Source: Reyranella soli (GTDB taxonomy: Bacteria; Pseudomonadota; Alphaproteobacteria; Reyranellales; Reyranellaceae). From it: a stretch of DNA of 64,000 bases. A program made the translations under genes and the position numbers. Location of the stretch: contig NZ_BKAJ01000004.1 in NCBI RefSeq assembly GCF_007992495.1, positions 186,001 to 250,000 of the forward strand, given 5' to 3'. Shown here one piece after another: positions 9,394-52,750 of this stretch; position 1 is the first letter of the stretch, and each line of letters opens with the position of its first letter. The notes beneath the pieces are model-generated. The model was not told where the DNA came from. It was given only the letters and a program-made list of their open reading frames with translations, and did not search any database.

Positions 9394-10377
9394 TTGAGTC
9401 CGATCGCCATCTTCAGTGGCAGCGCTCATCCCGCATTGGCTGAAGAGATTTGCGCGAAGCTTGGCGTTCCGTTGCTGCCGACGAGGCTGAAGCGGTTCTC
9501 GAACGACTGCATAGAAGTGCAGCTGCAGGCCAACTGCCGCGAGCAGGATGTCTTTCTCATTCAACCGTTGAGCTCGCCCGTCCAGGACCACCTCGTCGAA
9601 CTCCTGTTGATGCTCGATGCCGCCCGCGGCGCGTCGGCGGCGCGGATCACGGCCGTCATCCCTTTTTATGCCTATGCGCGATCCGACAAGAAGGATGCAC
9701 CACGCATCTCGATCGGTGGCCGCCTCGTCGCTGACCTGCTGGCGACAGCGGGGGCCGACCGGATTCTCACGATGACGCTCCATTCCCCGCAGGTTCACGG
9801 GTTTTTCAGCGTTCCCGTCGACCACTTGCATGCGCTGGGCGAGCTCGCGCAGCATTTCCAGCGCTACGACCTCGCCAATGGCGTCGTGGTGTCGCCCGAC
9901 CTGGGAAATGCCAAGAGTGCCGCGGCCTTCGCCAAGCGGCTGGGAGTACCCATGGCCGCGGGAGCGAAGGAGCGGCTGAGCGACACCGAGGTCAGGATTT
10001 CGATGCTGATTGGCGATGTCCGCGACCGTGACGTCATCGTCCTCGATGATGAGATCGTGACCGGCGGATCCATCCTGGAACTGCTGCGGCACCTGCGCGA
10101 CCACAAGGCCCGTTCCATCCGGATCGCCTGCACGCACGGAATTCTCTCCGGTTCTGCCACCCGGCGGCTGGCGGCGGAACCCGACGTGCTCGAGATCGTC
10201 TGCACGAACACGGTGCCCATTGCCGCCGAGAAGCGGGTGCCGAAGCTCACGGTACTGTCAATCGCGCCGGCCCTGGCTGAAGCCATGCGTCGGATCAACA
10301 GCGGTGAATCCGTCAGCGCCCTGTTCCATTCGGATCCGACAGTCCAGGACAATGCGAGGCCCGCGTTGCGGGCCTGA
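9394..10377 (+). CDS. Ribose-phosphate pyrophosphokinase paralog
   Basis: 327-residue member of the PRPP-synthetase family (ATP + ribose 5-phosphate to PRPP + AMP). The two phosphoribosyltransferase-like halves are visible, with FYAYARSDKKD in the first and the ribose-phosphate loop DDEIVTGGSI in the second. Several conserved motifs differ from the housekeeping enzyme: RSDKK for RQDRK/R, TLHSPQVHGFF for DLHAEQIQGFF (the histidine is kept), AKER for the flexible-loop DKRR, and DDEIVTGGS for DDMIDTGGT. This suggests a secondary paralog. Start is TTG 9394, seven bases after GAGGAGGA. A hairpin covers the stop. The M20 hydrolase gene follows after 63 bases. Confidence 0.8.
   Translation: MSPIAIFSGSAHPALAEEICAKLGVPLLPTRLKRFSNDCIEVQLQANCREQDVFLIQPLSSPVQDHLVELLLMLDAARGASAARITAVIPFYAYARSDKKDAPRISIGGRLVADLLATAGADRILTMTLHSPQVHGFFSVPVDHLHALGELAQHFQRYDLANGVVVSPDLGNAKSAAAFAKRLGVPMAAGAKERLSDTEVRISMLIGDVRDRDVIVLDDEIVTGGSILELLRHLRDHKARSIRIACTHGILSGSATRRLAAEPDVLEIVCTNTVPIAAEKRVPKLTVLSIAPALAEAMRRINSGESVSALFHSDPTVQDNARPALRA
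10357..10375 (+). terminator. Terminator-like hairpin at the end of the PRPP-synthetase gene
   Basis: Perfect 8-bp arms AGGCCCGC and GCGGGCCT with a three-base loop, overlapping the last codons and stop. There is no clear T-run, so it could be a weak terminator or an attenuator before the downstream hydrolase-transporter pair. Confidence 0.45.
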
Positions 10378-10440
10378 AAGGCGTGCTAGGTTTGGCAGCA
10401 GTGATCTGCCTTCCAACACCAGTTGCCTAATGGAATTCGC

Positions 10441-11685
10441 ATGAAGCCCTCCGACCGTCCCAACCTAAAGATCGAATCCGACCGTCTGTGGTCGAGCCTG
10501 ATGGAGCTGGCAGAGATCGGCGGCACGGAGAAGGGCGGCGTGTGCCGCATCGCCCTGACCGACCTCGACCGCCAGGGCCGCGATCTCTTCGTGCGCTGGG
10601 CAAAGGAGGCGGGCTGCAGCATCAAGGTCGACCAGCTCGGCAACATCTTCGCCCGCCGCGAGGGCCGCGATCCGGCCAAGCCGCCGGTGATGACCGGCTC
10701 GCATCTCGACACCCAGCCGACCGGCGGCAAGTTCGATGGCGCCTATGGCGTGATGGCCGGGCTCGAGGTCCTGCGCGTGCTGCACGATTCGGGGTACGTC
10801 ACCGAGGCGCCGATCGAAGTGGCCGTGTGGACCAACGAGGAGGGCTGCCGCTTCGCGCCGGCCATGGTGGCCTCGGGCGTGTTCGGCGGCGCTTTCACGC
10901 TCGACCATGCGCTCGGCATCAAGGATCGCGACGGCGTCAGCTTCGCCGAGGCATTGAAGGCGATCGGCTATGACGGCAAGGAGCCGGTCGGCGGTCGCAA
11001 GGTCGGCGCCTTCTTCGAAGCGCATATCGAGCAGGGGCCAATCCTCGAGCAGCAGAACAAGACCATCGGCGTCGTTACCGGCGCGCAGGGCCAGCGCTGG
11101 TACGAGATCTCGTGGACCGGCATGGAAAGCCACGCCGGCACCACGCCCATGGAAGGCCGCCGCGATGCGCTGGTCGGCGCGGCCGAGCTGATCGTCGAGT
11201 GCCGCAGGATCGGCAATCGGCCGAACGGGCGCTCGACCATCGGCGTGATCGAAAGCCAGCCGCAGTCGCGCAACACCATCCCCGGCCGCGTGTTCATGAC
11301 CGTGGACTTCCGCCATCCCGACGACGGCGAGCTGACCAGGATGGACGCCGAGATGCGGGCGGCGGCCGCCGACATCGCGAGCCGCCATCGGCTGGAGGTG
11401 AAGATCGAGCAGATCTGGTACTTCCCGCCGTCGCCTTTCGCCCGCGAGCTGGTCGATTCGGTGCGACGCGGGGCGGAGCAGGCGGGCTATGCCCACATGG
11501 ACATCGTGAGCGGCGCGGGCCACGACGCTTGCTACGTCAGCCGCGTCGCGCCGACCGCCATGATCTTCGTGCCGTGCAAGGATGGCATCAGCCACAACGA
11601 GATCGAGGACGCCGACAAGGCCGACATCGGCGCCGGCGCCCAGATCCTCCTGCAGGCGATGGTCGACCGAGCGAACTCTCCGTGA
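10441..11685 (+). CDS. M20 metallo-amidohydrolase (N-carbamoyl-amino-acid / allantoate type)
   Basis: 414-residue cytoplasmic hydrolase of the AmaB/AllC/HyuC group, which cleaves N-carbamoyl or ureido C-N bonds. Metal-binding elements are all present: GSHLDTQPTGGKFDGAYGV (His and Asp near residues 88-100), TNEEGCRF (Glu-Glu pair near 132), HIEQGP (near 200) and a C-terminal SHNEIE. ATG 10441 starts the family-like region; an in-frame TTG at 10423 is less likely. Its stop overlaps the GTG start of the BenE-like transporter by four bases, so the two proteins are translated together and may act on the same compound. A hydrolase for an N-acyl or carbamoyl aromatic is conceivable but unproven. Confidence 0.85.
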   Translation: MKPSDRPNLKIESDRLWSSLMELAEIGGTEKGGVCRIALTDLDRQGRDLFVRWAKEAGCSIKVDQLGNIFARREGRDPAKPPVMTGSHLDTQPTGGKFDGAYGVMAGLEVLRVLHDSGYVTEAPIEVAVWTNEEGCRFAPAMVASGVFGGAFTLDHALGIKDRDGVSFAEALKAIGYDGKEPVGGRKVGAFFEAHIEQGPILEQQNKTIGVVTGAQGQRWYEISWTGMESHAGTTPMEGRRDALVGAAELIVECRRIGNRPNGRSTIGVIESQPQSRNTIPGRVFMTVDFRHPDDGELTRMDAEMRAAAADIASRHRLEVKIEQIWYFPPSPFARELVDSVRRGAEQAGYAHMDIVSGAGHDACYVSRVAPTAMIFVPCKDGISHNEIEDADKADIGAGAQILLQAMVDRANSP

Positions 11686-29962: not shown

Positions 29963-31507
29963 CTAGCTGCGCAATTTGAAGCGCTGGATCTTGCCAGTCG
30001 CGGTCTTGGGCAGCTCGGGTACGTACTCGACCCAGCGTGGATATTTGTACGGTGCGAGCGTCTTCTTGCAGACCGCCATCAATTCCTCGGTGAGCGCCGG
30101 CCCGCCAACGCCCGCCTGCTTCAGCACCACGAAGGCTTTCGGCTTGATCAGGCTATGCTCGTCGGCATGGCCAACCACGGCCGCCTCCAGCACCGCGGGA
30201 TGCGTGATCAGGCAGCTCTCGACCTCGACCGGCGAGCACCAGATGCCGCCGACCTTCAGCATGTCGTCGCTGCGGCCGTCATAGATGAAGAAGCCATCCT
30301 CGTCCTGGCGATAGGTGTCGCCGGTGTTGAGCCAGCCCTCGACCATGGTCTCGGCCGTCTTCTCGGGCTTGTTCCAGTAGTACTTGGCCGCCGATTCCGA
30401 GCGGATCCACAGCCGGCCGCTCTCGCCCTGGGGCACCGGCTTGCCGTGCTCGTCGACGATCTTGACCTCGTAGCCCGGCACCGGCTTACCGCTGGTGCCC
30501 GGCTTGTACTCGTCGAGCCGATTGCCAATGAAGATGTGCAGGCACTCGGTCGAGCCGATGCCGTCCAGGATCACGGTGCCCGTCTTCTCCTTCCAGCGGC
30601 GGAAGATGTCGGAGGGCAGCGCCTCGGCTGCCGAGACGCAGGCGCGGATGCTGGAGAAGTCGCGCGGCTTCTTCTCCAGCGCCGCGAGCTGGGCGGCAAA
30701 GAGCGTCGGTGCGCCGAAGTAGAGCGTGGGCTTGAAGGTCTCGATGGTCTCGAAGGTCGAGTCGGGCGTCGGACGGCGGTCGTCGAGCACCGCGGTGCTG
30801 CCGGTCCACAGCGGGAAGGTCATGGAGTTGCCGAGCCCGTAGGCGAAGAAGAGCTTGCCCGCGGAGTAGCTCACATCGTCCTCGCGTACTCCCAGTGCTC
30901 GCACGCCGTAGCACTCGCTGGTCACCACCATGTCGCGCTGCAGGTGCACGGCCCCCTTGGGCCGTCCGGTCGAGCCGGAGGAGTAGAGCCAGAAGCAGTC
31001 GGCGGTCGGCGAGGCGAGCCGCGCTTCCAGCCTGTCGGAGGCCTTGGGCAGCTCGGCCAGGAAGGCGTCGATGGTGCTCGCCTTGACGCCGACCTGCGTC
31101 AAGGCCGGCTCGACCTCGGCGGCGAATTCGGTGGAATAGACCACGAGCCCACAGCCCGAATCCTCGAACAGGTAGGCGTAGTCGGCGGCGCGCAGCATGG
31201 TGTTGAGCGGCGCCGGGACGATGCCTGCCTTGATGGCTCCCCAGAACAGATAGAAGAAGGCCGGGCAGTCCTTCACGACCATCAGCACGCGGTCGCCGGG
31301 CTTCAGCCCGGAGGCCAGCAAGGCATTGCCAGCGCGGTTCACGCGCTCGGCGAGCTCGGCATACGTGACGGTCTCGCTGGCCGTGCGGATGGCGACCTTG
31401 GCGCCGCGGCCTTCCGCGATGTGCCGGTCGACGAACGGCACGGCGACGTTGAAGCGGGCGGGTAACCTCACCTTGAGGTCCGACCCGAATTCAATGCCTT
31501 CGATCAT
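29963..31507 (-). CDS. bclA: Benzoate-CoA ligase
   Basis: 514-residue ANL-family enzyme (benzoate + ATP + CoA to benzoyl-CoA + AMP + PPi). The ATP loop is at 175-185 (YSSGSTGRPKG). GIGSTECLHIFIGNR and WLNTGDTYRQDEDGFFIYDGR are characteristic of benzoate/4-hydroxybenzoate ligases, and the catalytic lysine is K506 in TATGKIQRFKLRS. GGGAGGAA lies nine bases before ATG 31507. The gene opens the ligase-importer operon, and its promoter region carries the 31-bp element shared with boxC. Benzoyl-CoA would feed BoxB. Confidence 0.93.
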   Translation of the reverse strand: MIEGIEFGSDLKVRLPARFNVAVPFVDRHIAEGRGAKVAIRTASETVTYAELAERVNRAGNALLASGLKPGDRVLMVVKDCPAFFYLFWGAIKAGIVPAPLNTMLRAADYAYLFEDSGCGLVVYSTEFAAEVEPALTQVGVKASTIDAFLAELPKASDRLEARLASPTADCFWLYSSGSTGRPKGAVHLQRDMVVTSECYGVRALGVREDDVSYSAGKLFFAYGLGNSMTFPLWTGSTAVLDDRRPTPDSTFETIETFKPTLYFGAPTLFAAQLAALEKKPRDFSSIRACVSAAEALPSDIFRRWKEKTGTVILDGIGSTECLHIFIGNRLDEYKPGTSGKPVPGYEVKIVDEHGKPVPQGESGRLWIRSESAAKYYWNKPEKTAETMVEGWLNTGDTYRQDEDGFFIYDGRSDDMLKVGGIWCSPVEVESCLITHPAVLEAAVVGHADEHSLIKPKAFVVLKQAGVGGPALTEELMAVCKKTLAPYKYPRWVEYVPELPKTATGKIQRFKLRS

Positions 31508-31549: not shown

Positions 31550-31580
31550 TTGCGTAATTTGGTACTGAAATACCTATTTA
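31550..31580 (-). promoter_or_regulatory. Shared operator/promoter element upstream of benzoate-CoA ligase
   Basis: This 31-bp block is identical at 30 of 31 positions to 39756-39786. Its centre on the plus strand is GGTACTGAAATACC, an inverted repeat (GGTA, six bases, TACC) with further partial symmetry outside. On the minus strand TTGCGA, 17 bases and TATTTC could be a promoter whose -10 lies in the dyad. It begins 42 bases before the ligase start and overlaps the stop codon of the upstream cyclase gene. Confidence 0.75.
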
Positions 31581-33464
31581 AGCTTCCCCTCGCAAGTCCC
31601 TTATTAGACCGCCCTCTATCAAGCCATCTAACCGGCCCCTGAGCAGGGACAACGGGACGGCATCGGCCGCGACATCGGCCGGGCCGCCGTCGAGTGGCAG
31701 CCAGAGGAAACCGTCGAGCGCGGCCGTCCGGCAACTCGCGCTGGCTACGATCGTGACCTCGCCGTGCCGCGGCGCGCGGCGGCCGAACTGCTCCAGCCGC
31801 GAGGCGACGTTCACCGCCTCGCCGATCGCGGTGTAGTCGACGCGGCCGGCGAAGCCGACATTGCCCACCAGGACCGTCCCGGTGTGCAGGCCAACCCGCA
31901 TGCGGCAGGCGGCGAGGCCGGCGAAGCGGCGCTCGCGATTGAACGCCTCGACCTCGTGCGCGATGGACAGCGCGCCGAGGCAGGCCGCGCGCGCATGCTG
32001 GGCGTTGGGCTCGGGTGCGCCCCAGAAGGCCATCAGCCCGTCACCCATGTATTTATCGATGGTGCCGCCCGTCGCTTCGATCGCCGGACCGACGCGCGCC
32101 ATCAGGTCGTTGAGATAAGTGGCGGTCTCGGTCGCCGGGCGGCCGCGCGAGTAGGCGGTGTAACCTTCGAGATCGCAGAACAGGATGGTGATAGCGCGAT
32201 CCTCGGCGGGTGGCAGGGCGCCCTGCTGAGCGATCAGTCGCGCGACCAGGGCACGCGGCAGGTAGGTGGCGGCGAGGTGCAGACCACGCGCCATGCGCTC
32301 AAAGGCGCGGTTCGCGAGGTTGAGCTCGCGCACCTTGCTGTCGCTGAGCTTCGGCACCTTCTCGAGCTCCAGCCGTTCGACGGCGCGCGCGGCGTCGGCC
32401 AGCGCCAGGATGGGCCGTGACAGGCGACGGCCGACCATGATCGCGATGATGCCCGTCAACAGCATCAGGACGGCGCCCGCAATCAGGATGCCGCGCACGA
32501 TCCAGCGCGCCCATGCCGATTCGCGGCCGGCGATGTGATAGCCGATGATCAGCGACGCGGGTTGGTACTCGTCGATCTTGCGGTAGATCCAGCCGTGGCT
32601 GCTGTCGCCGACCCAGTTCCAATGGCCTGACACCGTGCTGCCGCCGTTCAGCCAGGAGATCTCGTTGGGCTCAGGCCCCCACATCGCCGCCAGCACCGGA
32701 TCGTTGACCTCGTTCAGGCCAGAGAGCCGCCCACGGGCGCGCTGCTCGACTGTGCCTTGCTCCTTGCCGAGCCAGGGATGGGCCAGCACCTTGTCACGCC
32801 CGGCCAGGATGAACGGCTTGCGCTCACCCGCGAGCTCGAGGCTCTTGAGGAAGCGCGACAGGTCCGACGTGCCGATGGCCGCGCCGATGACGCCGCGGAA
32901 CTGCCCACGCACGCGGATCGGCACGATGATCGGCAGGATCGGCTCGCCGACCACGAGCGACCATTGCGGCTCGGCCCATTGCGGGCCGTTCAAGTTGCGG
33001 GCCTGGGCGAACAGGGCGTCGGTGAAGGGCAGGTTCTCGCGCCGCTCGAGCTGCACGCTGCGGTCGGTGCGGGTGAAGCGCATCGGCTCGCCGTCGACGG
33101 GAATGACGACGAAGCCAACGGCCTGCGGTGCGGCGGCGAGCGTACCCAGCGCGAAGGCCTTCCATTGCTCGCGGTTGTCGAAGTCGATCTCGCCCTTGGC
33201 GACGGCGTCGCTGATATAGGCGAGCTGGTCGCGCACCGGGCTGACGTGGGCCTGCAGACGCTGCTCGATCATGTCGACCATGACCTCGTTGAGCTGGCGT
33301 GACGAACTCTCGAAATTGCTCTGGGCGGCGTAGTAGGCGATGCCGATCACTGGCACCATGGCGAGGAAGATCAGGCCGACGAGCACGACGGGCAGCAGTC
33401 GCGTGATCGGCCAGCCTGAGGGCCTCGTCGATCGTGGGCCGGGGCCCGTCAGTTCAAGCACCAT
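31578..33464 (-). CDS. Membrane class III adenylate cyclase with extracytoplasmic sensor domain
   Basis: 628 residues. Transmembrane segment 1 (about 22-45), a Cache-like periplasmic sensor (45-325), transmembrane segment 2 (about 330-350), HAMP, then a cyclase domain. Catalytic features look intact: metal aspartates in LFCDLEGYT and KYMGDGLMAF, the adenine-selecting lysine in DKYMGDG and aspartate in VDYTAIGEAVN, and the transition-state Asn/Arg in NVASRLEQ. It should make cAMP in response to an external ligand. ATG 33464 is used; TTG 33482 is possible. It ends 70 bases before benzoate-CoA ligase, so read-through into the benzoate operon is possible. Confidence 0.85.
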   Translation of the reverse strand: MVLELTGPGPRSTRPSGWPITRLLPVVLVGLIFLAMVPVIGIAYYAAQSNFESSSRQLNEVMVDMIEQRLQAHVSPVRDQLAYISDAVAKGEIDFDNREQWKAFALGTLAAAPQAVGFVVIPVDGEPMRFTRTDRSVQLERRENLPFTDALFAQARNLNGPQWAEPQWSLVVGEPILPIIVPIRVRGQFRGVIGAAIGTSDLSRFLKSLELAGERKPFILAGRDKVLAHPWLGKEQGTVEQRARGRLSGLNEVNDPVLAAMWGPEPNEISWLNGGSTVSGHWNWVGDSSHGWIYRKIDEYQPASLIIGYHIAGRESAWARWIVRGILIAGAVLMLLTGIIAIMVGRRLSRPILALADAARAVERLELEKVPKLSDSKVRELNLANRAFERMARGLHLAATYLPRALVARLIAQQGALPPAEDRAITILFCDLEGYTAYSRGRPATETATYLNDLMARVGPAIEATGGTIDKYMGDGLMAFWGAPEPNAQHARAACLGALSIAHEVEAFNRERRFAGLAACRMRVGLHTGTVLVGNVGFAGRVDYTAIGEAVNVASRLEQFGRRAPRHGEVTIVASASCRTAALDGFLWLPLDGGPADVAADAVPLSLLRGRLDGLIEGGLIRDLRGEA

Positions 33465-33513
33465 CCGGGAACGCTCGCGCAAGAGCGCGTCAAAAAAGTG
33501 GCGCGGTCCGCAA

Positions 33514-35266: not shown

Positions 35267-36235
35267 TCACAGCTTGGCGCCCGACGCCTTCACCGGCGCC
35301 TGGAAGCTCTGCACCTGGTTGGCGACGAAGGCGGTGAACTCGGCCGGGCTCATCGGCTTGGTGACGAAGCCGAGATCGCCCAGGCGCTCGACGATCTTGG
35401 GATCGGCCAGCACCTCGGCGGCAGCCTTGTGCAGCTTGGCCTGTGCGTCGGCCGGCATGCCGGCAGGGGCGGAAATGCCGACGAAGTTCTCGGCGACCAG
35501 CTTGGGGTAGCCGAGCTCGGTGACCAGCGGCACGTCGGGTGCGCTCGGCGCCTTCTGCGTCGACGTGAGCGCGATCATGCGCAGCTTGCCGTCCTTGGCG
35601 AGCGGCAGCACTTCGGTGAGCGTGACCACGGCGAAGTCGAGCTGGTCGGCCATCATGTCCTGGAACATGGGTGCGGCGCCGCGATAGCCGATGTGCTCCA
35701 TGTTCAAGCCGAGCTCGGCCTTGAACATCTCGCCGATGATATGGCCGATCGAGCCCTGGCCGCCCGAGCCGAACGGCACCGGTTTGCCTTGTCCTTTGAT
35801 CCAGGCGATCAGCTCCGGCATGGTCTTGGCCGGCACGGCGGGCCGCACGACGAAGGCGTTGGCGACCGAGCCGATGTAGACGACGTGGGCAAAGTCCTTG
35901 ATCGGATCGTACGGCGGCTTGTCGAACAGATAGGGCGCGATCGAGAGCGGCGCGGAGTTCGACAGCATCAGCGTGTGATAGTCGTCCTTGGCCGCCAGCA
36001 CGAAGTTGGCGCCGATGGTCGTGCCGCCGCCCGGCTTGTTGTCGACGATCACCGTCTGGCCAAGCTTGTCCGACAACGGCCCCGCGACGACGCGCGCTGC
36101 GGCGTCGGACGCCCCGCCCGGCGGGAAAGTGACGATCAGCTTTAGCGCACGATTGGGCCACGGCGCCTGCGCGGCGGCCGTGCCGGCGAAGGCGAGGCTG
36201 GCGGTCATGCCAAGAAGCTGTCTGCGTGCGATCAT
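35267..36235 (-). CDS. Tripartite tricarboxylate (Bug-type) binding protein, box operon
   Basis: 322 residues: a Tat-like or Sec signal (MIARRQLLGMTASLAFAGTAAA, in part), then the Bug family fold with LIVTFPPGGASDAAARVVA, VDNKPGGGTTIGAN and HIGYRGAAPMFQDMMADQLD. Such proteins bind carboxylates in the periplasm. No TctA/TctB membrane genes are nearby. It is 52 bases downstream of the HIU-hydrolase-like gene and probably the last gene of the boxC-boxB operon, so an aromatic or dicarboxylic acid is a reasonable ligand. ATG 36235 begins the signal peptide. Confidence 0.83.
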   Translation of the reverse strand: MIARRQLLGMTASLAFAGTAAAQAPWPNRALKLIVTFPPGGASDAAARVVAGPLSDKLGQTVIVDNKPGGGTTIGANFVLAAKDDYHTLMLSNSAPLSIAPYLFDKPPYDPIKDFAHVVYIGSVANAFVVRPAVPAKTMPELIAWIKGQGKPVPFGSGGQGSIGHIIGEMFKAELGLNMEHIGYRGAAPMFQDMMADQLDFAVVTLTEVLPLAKDGKLRMIALTSTQKAPSAPDVPLVTELGYPKLVAENFVGISAPAGMPADAQAKLHKAAAEVLADPKIVERLGDLGFVTKPMSPAEFTAFVANQVQSFQAPVKASGAKL

Positions 36236-36287
36236 CGTTTCCCCCAAGCAGTGTCTTGCGCCTGAGTAGCAACGAGCGTGCCGCGCG

Positions 36288-36623
36288 TCAGGCCCCGCCA
36301 CGGAAAAGTGAGAAGCCCCAGGGCGTCATCTTGAGCGGCAGGTGATAGTGCTGCGCAAGATCTGCAACGCCAAAGCGGTAGGGTACCATCTCGAGGAAGG
36401 CGGGTGAGGGCACGGCGACGCCCTGGGCGCGGTACCAGTCACCGATATGGAAGACCGCCTCGTAAGTGCCGGTGGCCGGCGTCGGCGCGTCGAGCGTGCC
36501 GGGCTTCGCGGTTTGGCCATCGACCAGGAGCTTGCCGTCGGGACCACGTACTTCGACCCGCAGGCCCGCAGCGGGCACGCCGCGGGAGACGTCGTAGACG
36601 TGGATCGAGATTCCGCCGGCCAT
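36288..36623 (-). CDS. Transthyretin/5-hydroxyisourate-hydrolase-like protein, altered active site
   Basis: 111-residue member of the transthyretin-like family, the usual size of a HIU hydrolase. The N-terminal histidine (H8 in ISIHVYD) and the C-terminal region YHLPLKMTPWGFS are conserved. The catalytic arginine of the DGR motif is Q37 (VDGQTAK), and the C-terminal YRGS signature is FRGGA. The complete version in this genome (51869-52750) keeps all of these. It lies 13 bases behind boxB in the same operon, which is not a purine context. A different reaction or a binding role is likely. Confidence 0.8.
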   Translation of the reverse strand: MAGGISIHVYDVSRGVPAAGLRVEVRGPDGKLLVDGQTAKPGTLDAPTPATGTYEAVFHIGDWYRAQGVAVPSPAFLEMVPYRFGVADLAQHYHLPLKMTPWGFSLFRGGA

Positions 36624-36636
36624 CAGTTGAAGCGCC

Positions 36637-38055
36637 CTAATTGAACCTGACGTACTCGAAGTTGGCTGGCTGGTTGTTGATGCCGCGCTGCGGCGGGGCG
36701 ATCCAGTTGGCGAACTTGCCGGGCTCGACCACCGCCGGTCCCATCAGCGAGGTGACGTAGGCGCGGTCCTCGTCGGTCGGCAGCCACTTGTGCTCATTGG
36801 CCTTCCATTCGGCCTCGCTCATAACCTTGCCCTCGGGCGAGACATTGAGCTCGTTGAAGGCGCCGATGCGGCGGTTGAAGGCGCGGTGTGGCAGCCTGAG
36901 CTCGAAGGCGATGCCGGCCTGCTCGATCACGCGGTTCCAGCGGATCAGGCCGCGGGCGCAATCCTCGATGTAGTCGTTGCGCAGGCGCTCGTTCAGTGCC
37001 GACAGCGCCGGCACGGTCTTGCGCACGATGCGGCCGGCGTCGGCCGTGTCCATGTCGAAGCTCGAATCGGTCAGCACGTGGTCGTCTTCGATGCGCGTCT
37101 CGAGGTAACGGCCCTTGACGCCCATCGTGTAGTAGTTGGCCGCGTTAGTGGACGCCTCCTGGCCGAACAGGTCGAGCGACACCGAGAAGTGGAAGTTGAG
37201 GTACTTCTGGATGGTCGGCAGGTCGATCGCACCCAGGCTGCGCACGTCGTCGGTCTTGTGCTCCTTCATGAGGTCGCAGGTGCGCTGGACGATGCGCTGC
37301 ACGCCCGATTCGCCCACGAACATGTGATGGGCTTCCTCGATCAGCATGAAGCGGCAGGAACGCGCCAGCGGATCGAAGCCCGATTCGGCCAGCGACGCCA
37401 GCTGGTACTTGCCGTCGCGGTCGGTGAAGTAGGTGAACATGAAGAAGCTGAGCCAGTCCGGCGTCTTCTCGTTGAAGGCGCCGAGGATACGCGGCTTGTC
37501 GGGGTCGCCGGAATGGCGCTCCAGCAGCATCTCCGCCTCCTCGCGGCCATCGCGGCCGAAATAGGCGTGCAGCAGGTAGACCATGGCCCACAGGTGCCGG
37601 CCTTCCTCGCAGTTGATCTGGAAGACGTTGCGCAGGTCGTAGAGCGAGGGCGCGGTCTTGCCCAGAAGACGCTGCTGCTCGACCGACGCGGGCTCGGTAT
37701 CGCCCTGGGTGACGATCAGGCGGCGCAGGGTCGAGCGCAGCTCGCCCGGAACCTCCTGCCACACCGGCTTGCCCTTGTTGTCGCCATAGGCGATCACGCG
37801 GTTGGGATCCTGGCCGGCGAGGAAGATGCCCCAGCGATAGTCCGGCATCTTCACGTAGCCGAAATTGGCCCAGCCATTGGCCTCGGCCGAGATGGCGGTG
37901 CGCAGGTAGACGTCGAAGTTCAGCGTCCCGTCCGGCCCCATGTCTTTCCACCACTCGAGGAAGCGGGGCTGCCAGTTCTCCAGCGCCCGCTGCAGGCGGC
38001 GGTCGCTCGAGAGGTCGACGTTGTTGGGGATGCGCTGGGTATAGTCGATGGACAT
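36637..38055 (-). CDS. boxB: Benzoyl-CoA 2,3-epoxidase, oxygenase subunit BoxB
   Basis: 472 residues, matching BoxB. It is a diiron enzyme that adds one oxygen atom of O2 to benzoyl-CoA to form the 2,3-epoxide, with electrons from the BoxA reductase. Both E-x-x-H pairs are visible (E151/H154 in NCEEGRHLW and E241/H244 in IEEAHHMF), together with E121 and D212, spaced as in known BoxB. ATG 38055 starts MSIDYTQRIPNNVDL. It follows boxC by 11 bases. BoxA is not encoded in this window. Confidence 0.95.
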   Translation of the reverse strand: MSIDYTQRIPNNVDLSSDRRLQRALENWQPRFLEWWKDMGPDGTLNFDVYLRTAISAEANGWANFGYVKMPDYRWGIFLAGQDPNRVIAYGDNKGKPVWQEVPGELRSTLRRLIVTQGDTEPASVEQQRLLGKTAPSLYDLRNVFQINCEEGRHLWAMVYLLHAYFGRDGREEAEMLLERHSGDPDKPRILGAFNEKTPDWLSFFMFTYFTDRDGKYQLASLAESGFDPLARSCRFMLIEEAHHMFVGESGVQRIVQRTCDLMKEHKTDDVRSLGAIDLPTIQKYLNFHFSVSLDLFGQEASTNAANYYTMGVKGRYLETRIEDDHVLTDSSFDMDTADAGRIVRKTVPALSALNERLRNDYIEDCARGLIRWNRVIEQAGIAFELRLPHRAFNRRIGAFNELNVSPEGKVMSEAEWKANEHKWLPTDEDRAYVTSLMGPAVVEPGKFANWIAPPQRGINNQPANFEYVRFN

Positions 38056-38066
38056 GGTGTGCTCCC

Positions 38067-39740
38067 TCAGGCGCGCTTGCGGTCGTATTTGGATTGCTTG
38101 CCCGTGCCGTAGAGTTTCAGCGCGCCGTCGGGTCCGGTCGCGTTGGGCCGCTGGAAGATCCAGTTCTGCCAGGCCGACAGGCGGGCGAAGATCTTGGTCT
38201 CCATGGTCTCGGGGCCGGCGAAGCGCAGGTTGGCTTCCATGCCGATGAGCCCGTCGGGCGAGAAGCCGGCGCGCTCCTCGATGGCGAGCCGCACCTCGTC
38301 CTCCCAGTCGATGTCGTCGGGGGTGAAGGTGACCAGGCCGAGCTCGTCGGCCGTCTCGGCATCGAGCGCCTCGCCGATCTCGTCCCTGAGCTCGTTGACG
38401 CGGCTCGGCTCGGCGAGGAAGCGCGTGCCGAGCCGTGTGAGTCCGTTGCCCATGGGGTAGGGGCCGAAGTTCATGGCGGTCAGCCGCACCGTCGCGGCTT
38501 CCTGGTTGGAGCCCTCGAAGGCACCGTCCAGCATGTAGGAGCGGTCGGCCGCCAACACGATCTCGAACAGCGTGCCGGTGAAGCACGAGCCCGGCTCGAC
38601 CAGGGCGATCAGGCTGCGCGAGCTGACGTCGAGCCGCTTCAAGGTGCGCTTCCAGTAGAGCACGATCTCGCGCACCAGCCAGTTCGACGCCTCCTTGGCC
38701 AGCAGCGCGTCGTAGGCCTCCACGAGGTCGGCATCGCCCTGGCTCAGAAGCACCCAGGTGCCGATCTCGGTTTCGTTGAGCCGCAGATGCATCATGGCGT
38801 CGTCGAGATCGCGCGCCAGCGCCAGCGGCCAGAAGGCGGCGCCCTGGGCATGCACGGCGGTCGCATCGGCCGGCGGCGCGGCGGCCGGACCTTTCACCCG
38901 GAACTTCGCGGCGCGGCGCTCGCGGTCGATCTCGATGGTGAGATGGCCGTAGCGGATCGTGTCACCCTCGATCGCACGCTCGACCGCGGGCAGGGCGATG
39001 CCTTTGGCGGCCTTGGGGCGGCTCGATCGCGCAGCAACCTCCTCGGCGATCTTCCTGGTTTCGTCCGACAGCTTGCTGGGCGGGATCAGCTTGTCGACCA
39101 GGCGCCAGTCGCGCGCCCGCTTGCCGCGCACGCCCTCGGCGGTGGTGCAGAAGAAGTCGGCGTGGTCGCGCCGCACCATCCGCTTGTCGACGAGGCGGGT
39201 GAGGCCGCCGGTGCCCGGGAGCACGGCGAGCAACGGCAGCTCGGGCAGAGACACCGCGCTCGAGCCGTCGTCGGCCAGAAGGATCTGCTCGCAGGCCAGT
39301 GCGAGCTCGTAGCCGCCGCCGGCGGCGATGCCGTTGATCGAGCAGATGTAGGTCTGCCCCGAGTGCTCGCTGGCATCCTCGATGGCAAGCCGCGTCTCGT
39401 TGGTGAACTTGCAGAAGTTCACCTTGTGATCGTGGGTCGACAGGCCAAGCATGTTGATGTTGGCGCCCGAGCAGAAGATGCGGTCGCGGAGGGAGCGGAT
39501 GACCACGGCGGCGACCTCGGGGTGCTCGAAGCGCAGGCGCTGAACGGCGTCCGCCAGCTCGATGTCGACGCCGAGATCGTAGGAATTGAGCTTCAGCTTG
39601 TAGCCGGGTTTCAACCCGCCATCCTCGTTCACGTCCATGGTGAGGTAGGCCACACCGTTTTCGGTGCTGATCTTCCAATGCCGGTAGCGGTCGGGCGCGG
39701 TGCGGAAGTCGATGGGCGTATCGGGCTTACCGTTTTCCAT
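38067..39740 (-). CDS. boxC: 2,3-epoxybenzoyl-CoA dihydrolase (ring-opening lyase) BoxC
   Basis: 557-residue enoyl-CoA-hydratase-related enzyme with two crotonase-like halves. It opens the epoxide ring of 2,3-epoxybenzoyl-CoA with two waters to 3,4-dehydroadipyl-CoA semialdehyde and formate. Family features include the start DFRTAPDRYRHWKI, the oxyanion regions RIFCSGANINMLGLS and INGIAAGGGYELALACEQI, and WILFQ-type C-terminal text (NWIFQRPNATGPDGALKLYG, in part). It is the first gene of the operon; ATG 39740 lies 15 bases after the shared 31-bp operator. Confidence 0.95.
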   Translation of the reverse strand: MENGKPDTPIDFRTAPDRYRHWKISTENGVAYLTMDVNEDGGLKPGYKLKLNSYDLGVDIELADAVQRLRFEHPEVAAVVIRSLRDRIFCSGANINMLGLSTHDHKVNFCKFTNETRLAIEDASEHSGQTYICSINGIAAGGGYELALACEQILLADDGSSAVSLPELPLLAVLPGTGGLTRLVDKRMVRRDHADFFCTTAEGVRGKRARDWRLVDKLIPPSKLSDETRKIAEEVAARSSRPKAAKGIALPAVERAIEGDTIRYGHLTIEIDRERRAAKFRVKGPAAAPPADATAVHAQGAAFWPLALARDLDDAMMHLRLNETEIGTWVLLSQGDADLVEAYDALLAKEASNWLVREIVLYWKRTLKRLDVSSRSLIALVEPGSCFTGTLFEIVLAADRSYMLDGAFEGSNQEAATVRLTAMNFGPYPMGNGLTRLGTRFLAEPSRVNELRDEIGEALDAETADELGLVTFTPDDIDWEDEVRLAIEERAGFSPDGLIGMEANLRFAGPETMETKIFARLSAWQNWIFQRPNATGPDGALKLYGTGKQSKYDRKRA

Positions 39741-42644: not shown

Positions 42645-44150
42645 TCATCCTTGGCCAAGGTGGTCGACGCTGAAGACGAAAGCGGCATCGCTGCGGCCGC
42701 GCACGGCTACGCTGCCGAGGTCGGTGAAGACGAACTGGTCGCCACAGGCCTCGCGCGTGGTCTTCGAGACGAGAATGCGCGTGCGGTAGTCTTTGTTCAA
42801 CTGTTCGAGGCGTGCCGCAAGATTGACTGTGTCGCCAAGCAACGTGAAAGTCAGGCGTCGGCTTGCGCCAATCGATCCGCCGATCACGTGGCCCGTGCTG
42901 ATGCCGATGCGGGTGGGGAGCGCCAAGCCCATGTCGCCGAAGGTGCGGCTGCCAACGGCGCGCTGAATGTCGATGGCTGCGCGCACCGCCGCGTAGGCAT
43001 GGTCCTCGCAGGCCAGCGGCATGTTGAACGAGGCGAACAGGCCGTCGCCGATGAAGGTGTTGACAACGCCACCATGGGCGCGGATCGGCTCCAGCACCGT
43101 CTCGAGATATTCGTTGAGTGCGGCGACCAGCTCATGCGGCGCCAGGTATTCGGTGATGGTGGTGAAGCCCGCGATGTCGGTGAACAGGATGGTCGCCTCG
43201 CGCGTCTCGCCGGCCAGCACGCCTTCGCCCTCGCGCTGCAGGATGGTGGCGGCGACGTTCTCGTCGACATAGCGGCCGAAGGTTTCGCGGAAACGCTCGC
43301 GCTCGCGCAGACCCTCGACCATGTTGTTGAATTGCCCGGTCAGCTCGCCGACCTCGTCGTTGGAGGTCACCGGGATGCGCTGGCTGAGATCGCCCTCGGC
43401 GACCTTGCCCATCGCCTGCGACAGGTTGCGGATCGGCCCCAGCAAGGTGCGGGCGACGAAGTAGGCGGAAATCCCCAGGCCCATCGTGGCCACGACCACG
43501 ACGTTGGCGATCTCGAACTTCAGCCGGTCACCCTCGTAGGAGAACAGGGCAACGACGGTCGCCGCCAGCGGTGCGATCGAGATCACCATCAAGGCCACGA
43601 TCAGCTTGACGGTGTAGCTGCCGAAGAACAGCGCGAGATTGCGGCCGCGATGATGGAAGATGAAGGCGCACAGCCCGGCCAGATAATCGCTGATGACGAA
43701 GTAGGTGTAGGTGAAGAAGAAGACCGGCAGGACCAGGCAAAGGGTGATGACCTGCGCGATGGTGGGCTGTGGTACGTTGGTGAGGCTGGGGTCGGTGAAG
43801 ATGTAGGTGGCGGTGAGCCTGAAGACGGTCAGCACCAGGTCGAGGATCGCCACATGCCGCGCGGTCAGGAGCGGCAGCTGGGTGATGCGCCGCTGTGTGT
43901 CCTCGAAGCTCGCCTCGCCCCTCAGATAGCGCTCGATAGGGGCGAACCGGCGGCTTGCCAGATACCAGTTCACGAGCCCCAGCAGCACGACGCTGGCGCC
44001 GAGCGAGCGCGGCACGAAGCTCCAGGCGCCGGTCATGACGATGAAGACCAGGGTGAAGGCGACGTCGACAGCCAGCGTCGACACCGTCATCAGGAGATAA
44101 CGGCGACGCAGGCCGGCGATGTCGTCGCCAGCGATGTCGTTGGGCGTCAT
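42645..44150 (-). CDS. Membrane class III nucleotide cyclase, copy 2 of tandem pair
   Basis: 501 residues: an N-terminal membrane domain with about six segments (20-245), HAMP (SQAMGKVAEGDLSQRIPV) and a cyclase domain (about 310-495). Metal aspartates are present (LFTDIAGFT and IGDGLFASF), and the Asn/Arg pair is in NLAARLEQ. The base-selecting lysine is replaced by threonine (VVNTFIGDG) and its partner aspartate by threonine (LTFTLLGDT). Nucleotide preference is therefore open. It overlaps its paralog upstream by four bases and is followed by the acyl-CoA dehydrogenase. Confidence 0.85.
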   Translation of the reverse strand: MTPNDIAGDDIAGLRRRYLLMTVSTLAVDVAFTLVFIVMTGAWSFVPRSLGASVVLLGLVNWYLASRRFAPIERYLRGEASFEDTQRRITQLPLLTARHVAILDLVLTVFRLTATYIFTDPSLTNVPQPTIAQVITLCLVLPVFFFTYTYFVISDYLAGLCAFIFHHRGRNLALFFGSYTVKLIVALMVISIAPLAATVVALFSYEGDRLKFEIANVVVVATMGLGISAYFVARTLLGPIRNLSQAMGKVAEGDLSQRIPVTSNDEVGELTGQFNNMVEGLRERERFRETFGRYVDENVAATILQREGEGVLAGETREATILFTDIAGFTTITEYLAPHELVAALNEYLETVLEPIRAHGGVVNTFIGDGLFASFNMPLACEDHAYAAVRAAIDIQRAVGSRTFGDMGLALPTRIGISTGHVIGGSIGASRRLTFTLLGDTVNLAARLEQLNKDYRTRILVSKTTREACGDQFVFTDLGSVAVRGRSDAAFVFSVDHLGQG

Positions 44151-45634
44151 GCCGGCCCGATGCGATAGACCACGACGTTCTCGTGGCCACGCACGTCGAC
44201 CGTGCCCAAGCGCTCACAGTCCGACGAGTCGGCAGCGCACACCGTGCTCTCCGTCGCCAGGATGCGGGTGCCGAATTTCTTGTTGAGCTGTTCGACTCGC
44301 GAGGCGACGTTCACGGCATCGCCCAGCAGCGTGTAGTTCAGCCGGTTCTCGGTGCCGATGGTGACGCCAATCACCGTGCCGGTATTGAGGCCGATGCGCG
44401 TGCGCAGGGCGACGTGGCCGGCGAATGGCCCCTCGTCGAGCACCTGCTGGATATCGATCGCCGCGGCGATCGCGGCTGCGGCATGGTTCTCGCAAGGCAG
44501 CGGCAGGTTGAAGGTGGCGAACAGGCCGTCGCCGATGAAGCTGTTGACGACGCCGCCATGGCGCTGGATCACCGGCACGACGGCGCCGAGATAGGCGTTC
44601 AGCACGGACGCGACCTCGGCGGGCGCCAGGCGCTCGGAGAGGCCGGTGAAGCCCTCGATGTCGGTGAACATCAGCGTCGCCTCCCCGGTGGTATCGACGA
44701 CGCGGCCGGTGCGGTTGTCGAGGATCGCAGTGGCCACGCTCGTGCTGACATACTTGCCGAACGTGTCGCGCAGGTATTCGCGCTCCGACAGGCCTTCCAC
44801 CATCTCGTTGAAACGGCCGGCAGCGTGGCCCATCTCGTCGTCGGACGTCACCGGCAGGCGGACCTGATAGTCGCCCTTGGCGACCTGCCGCATGCCGTGA
44901 TCGAGGCGGGCGACCGGGCGGCTGAGGGCGTGGTTGATCCAGAACACCATGAATAGGGCGCCGACGATCGTGGCGACAACATCCATCGTCGCCTCGCGGA
45001 CCAGGCGCTGGCCGCTGTAGCTCGCAATGTCGGCCGACAGCAGCATCACGCCGGCGAAGGCCATGTACAGCAGGGCGACGGAAACCTTGCGGCGAAAACG
45101 GCCGTGGAAGACGTGGAGGTTCACGTTGCGCGTGCGGAACAGGTGCTCGCAGAGCTGGTCGAGATAGGCGCTGACGATGAAGAAGATCAGCAGGACATTG
45201 CCGCCCGTGCCGACCACGAACGAGGCGAGCAGGTCGGGCCAGTTCGGATCTTCCTGCATGGCATCGATGTCGATGCCGTATCGCCGTGGCAGCATCCGCA
45301 GCATCACCATCGGCATGTAGCAGATCGCCATGACCATCGCGGACCGGCGCGGCAAGCTGGTCAGAGCAGGTTCGATCTCGCCGAACGAGATCTCGCCGGC
45401 GATGAACCGGCTGACGGGCCGGATCAGGAAATAGGCGCCGATGCTGACGGCGACCACCAGGAACGCCGCGGACATCGCCACATTCAGCGGCAGGAGCTCG
45501 AATTCTCCGTGCATCACGCCGTAGACGACCAGCGTGATCACGTCGATCGCGAACGGCACGGCCATCGCCAGGTAGTAGCGGCCGATGACGGCATTGACTG
45601 CCGTGCGTGGCGCCGCGTCGGTCGATGCGGTCAT
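44147..45634 (-). CDS. Membrane class III nucleotide cyclase, copy 1 of tandem pair
   Basis: 495 residues, same architecture as the next gene: six-segment membrane domain, HAMP (GMRQVAKGDYQVRLPV) and cyclase domain with MFTDIEGFTGLSERLAP, VVNSFIGDGLFATF and NYTLLGDAVNVASRVEQ. Metal aspartates and the Asn/Arg pair are kept. The adenine-selecting lysine is serine and the partner residue is asparagine. The pair arose by tandem duplication and is translationally coupled (ATGA overlap). It may form a heterodimer, since class III cyclases act as dimers. Confidence 0.85.
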   Translation of the reverse strand: MTASTDAAPRTAVNAVIGRYYLAMAVPFAIDVITLVVYGVMHGEFELLPLNVAMSAAFLVVAVSIGAYFLIRPVSRFIAGEISFGEIEPALTSLPRRSAMVMAICYMPMVMLRMLPRRYGIDIDAMQEDPNWPDLLASFVVGTGGNVLLIFFIVSAYLDQLCEHLFRTRNVNLHVFHGRFRRKVSVALLYMAFAGVMLLSADIASYSGQRLVREATMDVVATIVGALFMVFWINHALSRPVARLDHGMRQVAKGDYQVRLPVTSDDEMGHAAGRFNEMVEGLSEREYLRDTFGKYVSTSVATAILDNRTGRVVDTTGEATLMFTDIEGFTGLSERLAPAEVASVLNAYLGAVVPVIQRHGGVVNSFIGDGLFATFNLPLPCENHAAAAIAAAIDIQQVLDEGPFAGHVALRTRIGLNTGTVIGVTIGTENRLNYTLLGDAVNVASRVEQLNKKFGTRILATESTVCAADSSDCERLGTVDVRGHENVVVYRIGPA

Positions 45635-51868: not shown

Positions 51869-52750
51869 ATGACGCTTACGCTCGACGCGCTCAACCGGAT
51901 GAACCCGGCGGATTTTGCAGCCGCCATCGGCGACACTTTTGAGCTGGCGTCCTGGGTGGCCGAAAGCGCGGCGACGCGACGACCTTTCCCGACGGTAACC
52001 AGCCTGCACAACGCCATGATCGGCACGGTGCGGGCGGCACCGCGCGAGCATCAGGTCGAGTTCCTGAGCGGCCATCCCGATCTTGCCGGCAAGGCCGCCC
52101 GGGCCGGCGCCATGACCGACGATTCCAAGCGCGAGCAGGCGAGCGTTGGCCTGGACAGTCTGAGCGAGGAGGAATTCGCACGCTTCCATCGGCTGAACGA
52201 CGCCTACAAGGCGAAGTTCGGCTTTCCCTTCATCGTCTGCGTGCGCCGCCATACGCGCGATTCCATTCTGGCGCAGTTCGAGCGCCGGCTGGGGCACGAC
52301 CAGGCGACGGAGTTCGCCGCGGCCCTGCATGAAGTGTTCTTCATCACGCGACTTAGGATCGCAGCCAAGGTGACGGGCGAGGGCATGCCCATCGTCAATG
52401 GCCGGCTCAGCACCCATGTGCTCGATACCGATGCCGGCCGTCCGGCTGTCGGCGTGGCGATCGAGCTCTACGAGTTCGTCGGCGAAAAAGCCCACTATAT
52501 TCAGTCAGCTATAACGAATGCCGACGGCCGCACCGACCAGCCGCTGATCGGCGGCCGGCCGCTGCCGATCGGGCGCTACGAACTGCGCTTCGCCGTCGGC
52601 GACCACTTTCGCAGCAGGGGTATTGCGACCGGCGATCCGCCGTTTCTCGACATCGTGCCTTTGCGCTTTTCCATCGCCGAGCCGGAGGGGCATTATCACG
52701 TCCCATTGCTCTGCACGCCCTGGAGCTACTCGACCTATCGCGGAAGTTAA
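51869..52750 (+). CDS. Bifunctional OHCU decarboxylase / 5-hydroxyisourate hydrolase
   Basis: 293 residues with two urate-pathway domains. Residues 1-165 are OHCU decarboxylase, with the catalytic histidine H47 (TSLHNAMIG), S86 and E89 (DDSKREQ) and [11 protein letters not shown]. Residues 175-293 are a HIU hydrolase with H183 (STHVLD), R221 (ADGRTDQP), YHVPLL and the C-terminal YRGS. The protein would convert 5-hydroxyisourate to OHCU and then to S-allantoin, similar to fused allantoin synthases. ATG 51869 follows GGTGGCGG. The aldehyde dehydrogenase gene starts 10 bases after its stop. Urate oxidase is not in the window. Confidence 0.92.

Follow-up and report, generated by a model that had tools for sequence, protein, structure and literature searches.

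5-Hydroxyisourate (5-HIU) hydrolase (HIUase, PucM/HiuH/UraH) and vertebrate transthyretin are built on one fold, and transthyretin does not keep both histidines of the hydrolase. In the K. pneumoniae enzyme HIUH, His7, His92 and Arg41 are used and Tyr105 and Ser108 lie at the substrate; the exchange R41K costs only fivefold in this enzyme and S108A little (PMC8272043). With the Salmonella dublin protein TLP, rapid 5-HIU hydrolysis was not seen for the mutants H6A, H95A and Y108F (PMC4324301). TmuH, a trimethyl-HIU hydrolase of caffeine C-8 oxidation whose cluster holds caffeine dehydrogenase and TmuM, has also been put forward as a relative of HIU hydrolase that takes a modified substrate (PMC4408171). 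Box clusters hold boxABCD, bclA and a lactonase, and a survey of the BoxR regulon named boxABCD, a lactonase, a thioesterase and transporters (PMC6449761).

Here we analysed a protein encoded directly behind boxB in a 64,000-nucleotide stretch of Reyranella soli DNA (hereafter, the window). We call it TTR-K, a name used here for lysine-type transthyretin-like protein. TTR-K has the whole fold, the length and both catalytic histidines in common with 5-hydroxyisourate hydrolase, but the arginine of the ADGR motif is T43, a leucine has become Lys98, a tyrosine has become Phe107 and the C-terminal serine is gone; it also falls in a separate clade and scores below the equivalog cut-off. With vertebrate transthyretin it shares the fold and the loss of the hydrolase arginine and tyrosine. 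Unlike transthyretin, in which hydrolase histidine is replaced, TTR-K keeps both histidines, gains a channel lysine and has bacterial catabolic neighbours. Its likeness to box clusters is one of genome position in Reyranellaceae; the BoxR regulon survey (PMC6449761) lists no such protein, and most genomes of the order that hold boxB lack it.

Fold, family and gene neighbourhood

TTR-K matched PF00576 at 75.2 bits, far above chance and above the family cut-off of 25.3, which places it in the HIUase/transthyretin fold family. Against TIGR02962, the hydroxyisourate hydrolase equivalog, it scored 70.2 bits and so fell short of the cut-off of 87.45, which the canonical copy of locus L132 passed at 124.9. 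The public annotation of its relatives is hydroxyisourate hydrolase. An AlphaFold2 model of TTR-K, made with 21 aligned sequences (pLDDT 93.5), had the transthyretin fold; the best matches among solved structures were the HIU hydrolases 8uw4 and 4q14 (VIA Z 17.8; rmsd 1.5 and 37% identity for 8uw4), and vertebrate transthyretin matched with a Z of 16.4. Purifying selection was evident in nine pairwise comparisons (dN/dS 0.05–0.22), and strong constraint acts on the gene. A chance open reading frame or a pseudogene was ruled out by family score, fold and dN/dS.

The initial annotation had described an HIU-hydrolase-like protein with a changed active site, starting 13 bases after the boxB stop. 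Fold, family score and the residue losses given below agree with this description, the spacing follows from the open reading frame coordinates, and the names boxB and boxC are borne out by their profile matches (Table 1).

Table 1. Genes and active-site codons in and around the TTR-K locus (window coordinates)
Feature	Position	Strand	Basis
TTR-K, lysine-type transthyretin-fold protein, 111 aa	36288..36623	-	ORF and translation, PF00576, AlphaFold2
TctC-family periplasmic substrate-binding protein	35267..36238	-	PF03401, 192 bits
boxB, benzoyl-CoA 2,3-epoxidase, 472 aa (start codon set as in relatives)	36637..38055	-	TIGR03225, 848.9 bits
boxC, 2,3-epoxybenzoyl-CoA dihydrolase	38067..39740	-	TIGR03222, 920.3 bits
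Benzoate-CoA ligase family protein, farther downstream in the same box region	29963..31507	-	TIGR02262, 607.9 bits
OHCU decarboxylase-HIU hydrolase fusion, ADGR and YRGS intact	51869..52750	+	TIGR03164, 190.6 bits; PF00576, 116.2 bits
H8 codon, retained catalytic His (His7 of K. pneumoniae HIUH)	36600..36602	-	His in 55/55 subfamily and 82/82 canonical
Q37 codon, residue named in the initial annotation	36513..36515	-	column variable in both sets
T43 codon, true catalytic-Arg column	36495..36497	-	Arg in 82/82 canonical, 0/55 subfamily
H94 codon, retained second catalytic His (His92 of K. pneumoniae HIUH)	36342..36344	-	55/55 subfamily and 82/82 canonical
K98 codon in HLPLK, subfamily-defining Lys	36330..36332	-	Lys in 55/55 subfamily
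C-terminal FRGGA, replaces YRGS	36291..36305	-	Phe in 53/55 subfamily; YRGS in 82/82 canonical, by construction, this set being partly chosen by C-terminal ending

The genome encodes two PF00576 proteins, both inside the window. The second forms the C-terminal domain of the fusion protein (52403–52750), so a complete HIU hydrolase is indeed encoded elsewhere in the window, as had been stated. This urate gene lies about 15 kb off, and purine genes do not adjoin TTR-K in the window. Across the order Reyranellales, boxB and a canonical HIU hydrolase gene were 4.8–28.5 kb apart in 43 genomes (window included); since the order thus keeps its box genes close to the canonical urate gene, we regard the region as a conserved, mixed benzoate and urate island. 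Between the genes for TctC and benzoate-CoA ligase lies one (31578–33482) whose product resembles guanylate/adenylate cyclases and matches Cache and HAMP weakly, and cyclase/sensor-like proteins of similar kind are encoded at 42645–45634.

Active-site residues of the lysine-type subfamily

We compared 55 subfamily proteins, that of the window included, with 82 canonical proteins. H8, the HYHLPL region and the FRGGA ending, all noted earlier, are present in the window protein, and both catalytic histidines of HIU hydrolase are kept (H8 and H94). The reported loss of the catalytic arginine (Arg41 of K. pneumoniae) also stands, but not at the residue originally named. LVDGQT had been taken for the ADGR motif, with Q37 at the arginine position; ADGRTD aligns on KPGTLD, which puts T43 in the arginine column. 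Three alignments, to solved HIU hydrolases, to relatives and to the 82 canonical sequences, rule out Q37, a column in which 21 of the 55 subfamily proteins carry arginine. At the T43 column, subfamily members have Ala, Thr, Val, Leu, Met, Ser or Gln.

The canonical tyrosine is phenylalanine in 53 of the 55 (F107 in the window protein) and is retained in two. The C-terminal serine is likewise lost in 53/55, the chains ending in FRGGA, FRGA, FRGG or similar in place of YRGS. A further position had been overlooked: the K98 column is lysine in all 55 subfamily proteins, some of which were found by patterns that favour the lysine motif (QHYHLPLK and MTPWGFSL), and leucine (80) or valine (2) in the canonical set. 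Members recovered by profile searches without those patterns keep the lysine too.

Structural alignment placed model residues 4–111 on human transthyretin 11–123. With no gap assumed in the last strands, this implies transthyretin positions 15 for H8, 106 for H94, 110 for K98 and 119 for F107. K98 would thus fall on position 110, in the ligand channel, as judged by the aligned range of a single-chain model.

The natural exchange of tyrosine for phenylalanine is that of the Salmonella mutant Y108F, which makes efficient 5-HIU hydrolysis by the subfamily, TTR-K included, appear unlikely by analogy. Judged on its sequence, TTR-K belongs to a known family but to a new variant of it, one with consistent marker residues; databases name this subfamily hydroxyisourate hydrolase, though three active-site features are gone and an invariant lysine is found instead. 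No description of a lysine-type subfamily was found in the literature searched, which took in few subscription journals.

Linkage to boxB and TctC in Reyranellales

Presence and absence were scored in 76 genomes of the order, 385 of the class and 398 of the phylum; at GC-rich loci, open reading frames were called by GC3-weighted choice and by tblastn with named references. Within the order, 72 genomes hold boxB and 28 hold TTR-K, which is absent from 44 of the 72 boxB genomes and so does not occur wherever the box pathway does. Where both genes are on one contig, they are always adjacent (24/24 genomes; gap 2–2442 bases, median 94), and in 12 of these 24 genomes TTR-K lies within 23 bases of boxB. 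The conserved boxB linkage therefore holds within Reyranellaceae. Several genomes have 0.3–2.4 kb between the two genes, where other genes can intervene, for instance one for a Tim44-like protein or, in L109 and L136, one for a sulfate permease on the opposite strand. Benzoate-CoA ligase directly follows boxB in some boxB genomes that lack TTR-K, and one genome (G017) has a frameshifted TTR-K remnant behind boxB. The association with boxB is genuine, though a local one.

The tighter and constant partner of TTR-K in Reyranellales is TctC. Of the 76 genomes, the 28 with TTR-K, and no others, had a TctC ortholog, at a distance of 21–82 bases in 27 of the 28; in G002 the contig that carries the TctC-TTR-K pair lacks boxB. 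The window's own genome has 144 matches to the TctC-type family. The closest other TctC in this genome is 37% identical, compared with 58% for the TctC linked to TTR-K in Hydrogenophaga; TctC proteins linked to TTR-K group together, that of Hydrogenophaga with that of the window. TctC families are promiscuous and numerous, so the pairing names no ligand.

Outside the order, six of eight tested subfamily genomes hold an unlinked boxB, above the class background, and G599 and G503 have the subfamily without boxB. Among the sampled class genomes that do not belong to the order, boxB was found in 4/4 subfamily genomes versus 38/90 canonical-only genomes (p = 0.037, uncorrected for ancestry). Relatives of those genomes that lack TTR-K hold boxB too, so shared ancestry may suffice for the co-occurrence. 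Since 45% of HIU-type genomes of the class hold boxB, co-occurrence at the genome level is a weak signal, with ancestry and genome size as confounders. Presence and absence across the order, class and phylum genomes disfavour a box-specific enzyme.

Relatives outside Reyranellaceae and candidate function

We found 45 loci on scanning 84,980 species genomes, and further ones in plasmid records and in scans of the class and the phylum. The lysine-type clade separated from the canonical clade with 100/100 support, and the Reyranellaceae box copies formed a single clade (96/90). The subfamily extends over Alpha-, Beta- and Gammaproteobacteria and cyanobacteria. No boxB was found near non-Reyranellaceae copies in the examined loci, up to 8–12 kb per side where the contig allowed.

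The neighbours at these loci are of other kinds. OHCU decarboxylase and TctC accompany the copy in a Hydrogenophaga MAG (L129), and uraD with TctBAC that in Defluviimonas (L170). At L205 we found an OHCU decarboxylase-TctB fusion (9661–10659) next to TctA and TctC, an arrangement that points to uptake of a urate-type compound by a TctABC transporter. Genes for xanthine/uracil permease, a deaminase and TTR-K overlap at L208 and lie near one another at L119, and L137 has TctC, a PuuE-like allantoinase and an Asp/Glu/hydantoin racemase. At most of the other loci, those of Azospirillum, cyanobacteria and Methylobacterium among them, a Pot-type ABC transporter is found with varying sets of partner genes. 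The FRGGA ending is common to seven non-box relatives, five of which lie beside OHCU decarboxylase or xanthine permease. A canonical-scoring second PF00576 copy was present in 8/8 tested subfamily genomes outside the order.

A conserved catabolic module of this Pot-type kind recurs at L204, L206, L209, L169, L168, L132 and L128, combining in varying sets the ABC transporter, TTR-K, MFS, amidase, AMDase-like protein, dihydropyrimidinase and GntR/FCD regulator.

The initial annotation had proposed a step in benzoyl-CoA metabolism. Its account of an altered HIU-hydrolase-like protein, a canonical urate copy and linkage to boxB stands; the benzoyl-CoA role is not supported, given the 44 of 72 boxB genomes without TTR-K and the purine- or ureide-type neighbours outside the family. 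Homologs lying mainly next to purine genes had been named beforehand as evidence against that role, and these neighbours come close to it. We therefore regard as distinctly unlikely an accessory box-pathway enzyme that hydrolyses or scavenges a reactive side product (epoxide, lactone or thioester) formed when benzoyl-CoA is oxidised. TTR-K is on the same strand as boxCB, adjacent to boxB in every testable Reyranellaceae genome and within 23 bases of it in half of these, and the unlinked boxB of six of the eight tested genomes outside the order would fit such an enzyme; against it stand the patchy occurrence within the order, the wide spacing with an opposite-strand sulfate permease at L109 and L136, copies outside the family that were never near boxB where examined, the two subfamily genomes without boxB, and a BoxR regulon survey that names no such protein (PMC6449761). 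Adjacency to boxB alone does not place a gene in the box pathway.

A second ordinary 5-HIU hydrolase for urate, tolerating its substitutions, would account for the fold, both retained histidines, the public annotation of the relatives and the OHCU decarboxylase neighbours at L129, L205 and L170, and the mild effects of R41K (fivefold) and S108A in K. pneumoniae HIUH (PMC8272043) are in its favour. We nevertheless consider it unlikely: the arginine is lost in 55/55 proteins, the tyrosine and the C-terminal serine each in 53/55, Y108F was inactive in the Salmonella protein (PMC4324301), the TIGR02962 score is under the cut-off, and all eight tested genomes outside the order already have a canonical-scoring copy. 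The tyrosine loss resembles the one in the step from HIU hydrolase to transthyretin (PMC4324301), and Lys98 aligns with the channel site at transthyretin position 110, as might be expected of a non-catalytic protein that binds an aromatic or heterocyclic ligand in its central channel like vertebrate transthyretin. Such a binding role is improbable, however, with both catalytic histidines invariant and neighbours that are mostly catabolic enzymes and transporters.

The rebuilt form lies beside purine- or ureide-type degradation genes in many bacteria, and TTR-K is thus probably no benzoate enzyme but one that opens rings with a specialisation of its own. We give about even chances to the reading that it belongs to an undescribed lysine-type subfamily and is a tetrameric hydrolase for a purine-, hydantoin- or ureide-like cyclic amide, with no step in the box pathway. 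As such a cytosolic tetrameric hydrolase, TTR-K would use H94, aided by H8, to activate water as in HIU hydrolase; the water would attack a ring carbonyl and the cyclic amide would open. Lys98 in the channel may polarise the carbonyl or anchor the substrate, replacing the lost arginine. A purine-, hydantoin- or ureide-like cyclic amide as substrate would fit the neighbour genes, and TctC possibly helps to import it. The site behind boxB, a position specific to Reyranellaceae, probably gives shared transcription with the benzoate genes there. Tentatively, and at slightly less than even chances, we propose as a whole that the HIU-hydrolase fold has here taken on a new activity, with a channel lysine in place of arginine, which opens a ring of purine- or ureide-like type in catabolic routes yet to be characterised, and that the Reyranellaceae copy sits with its TctC partner in a benzoate operon. 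Conserved catabolic clusters that encode an ABC transporter, amidase, dihydropyrimidinase and racemase/decarboxylase-like enzyme are marked by the subfamily, which opens a direct way to look for their substrate.

Elsewhere in the order, several PF00576 genes, some strongly diverged, occur in a row at G063:C23:17009-19337 and G015:C6:47645-49448, a pattern suggesting that HIU hydrolase genes have been duplicated locally in Reyranella.
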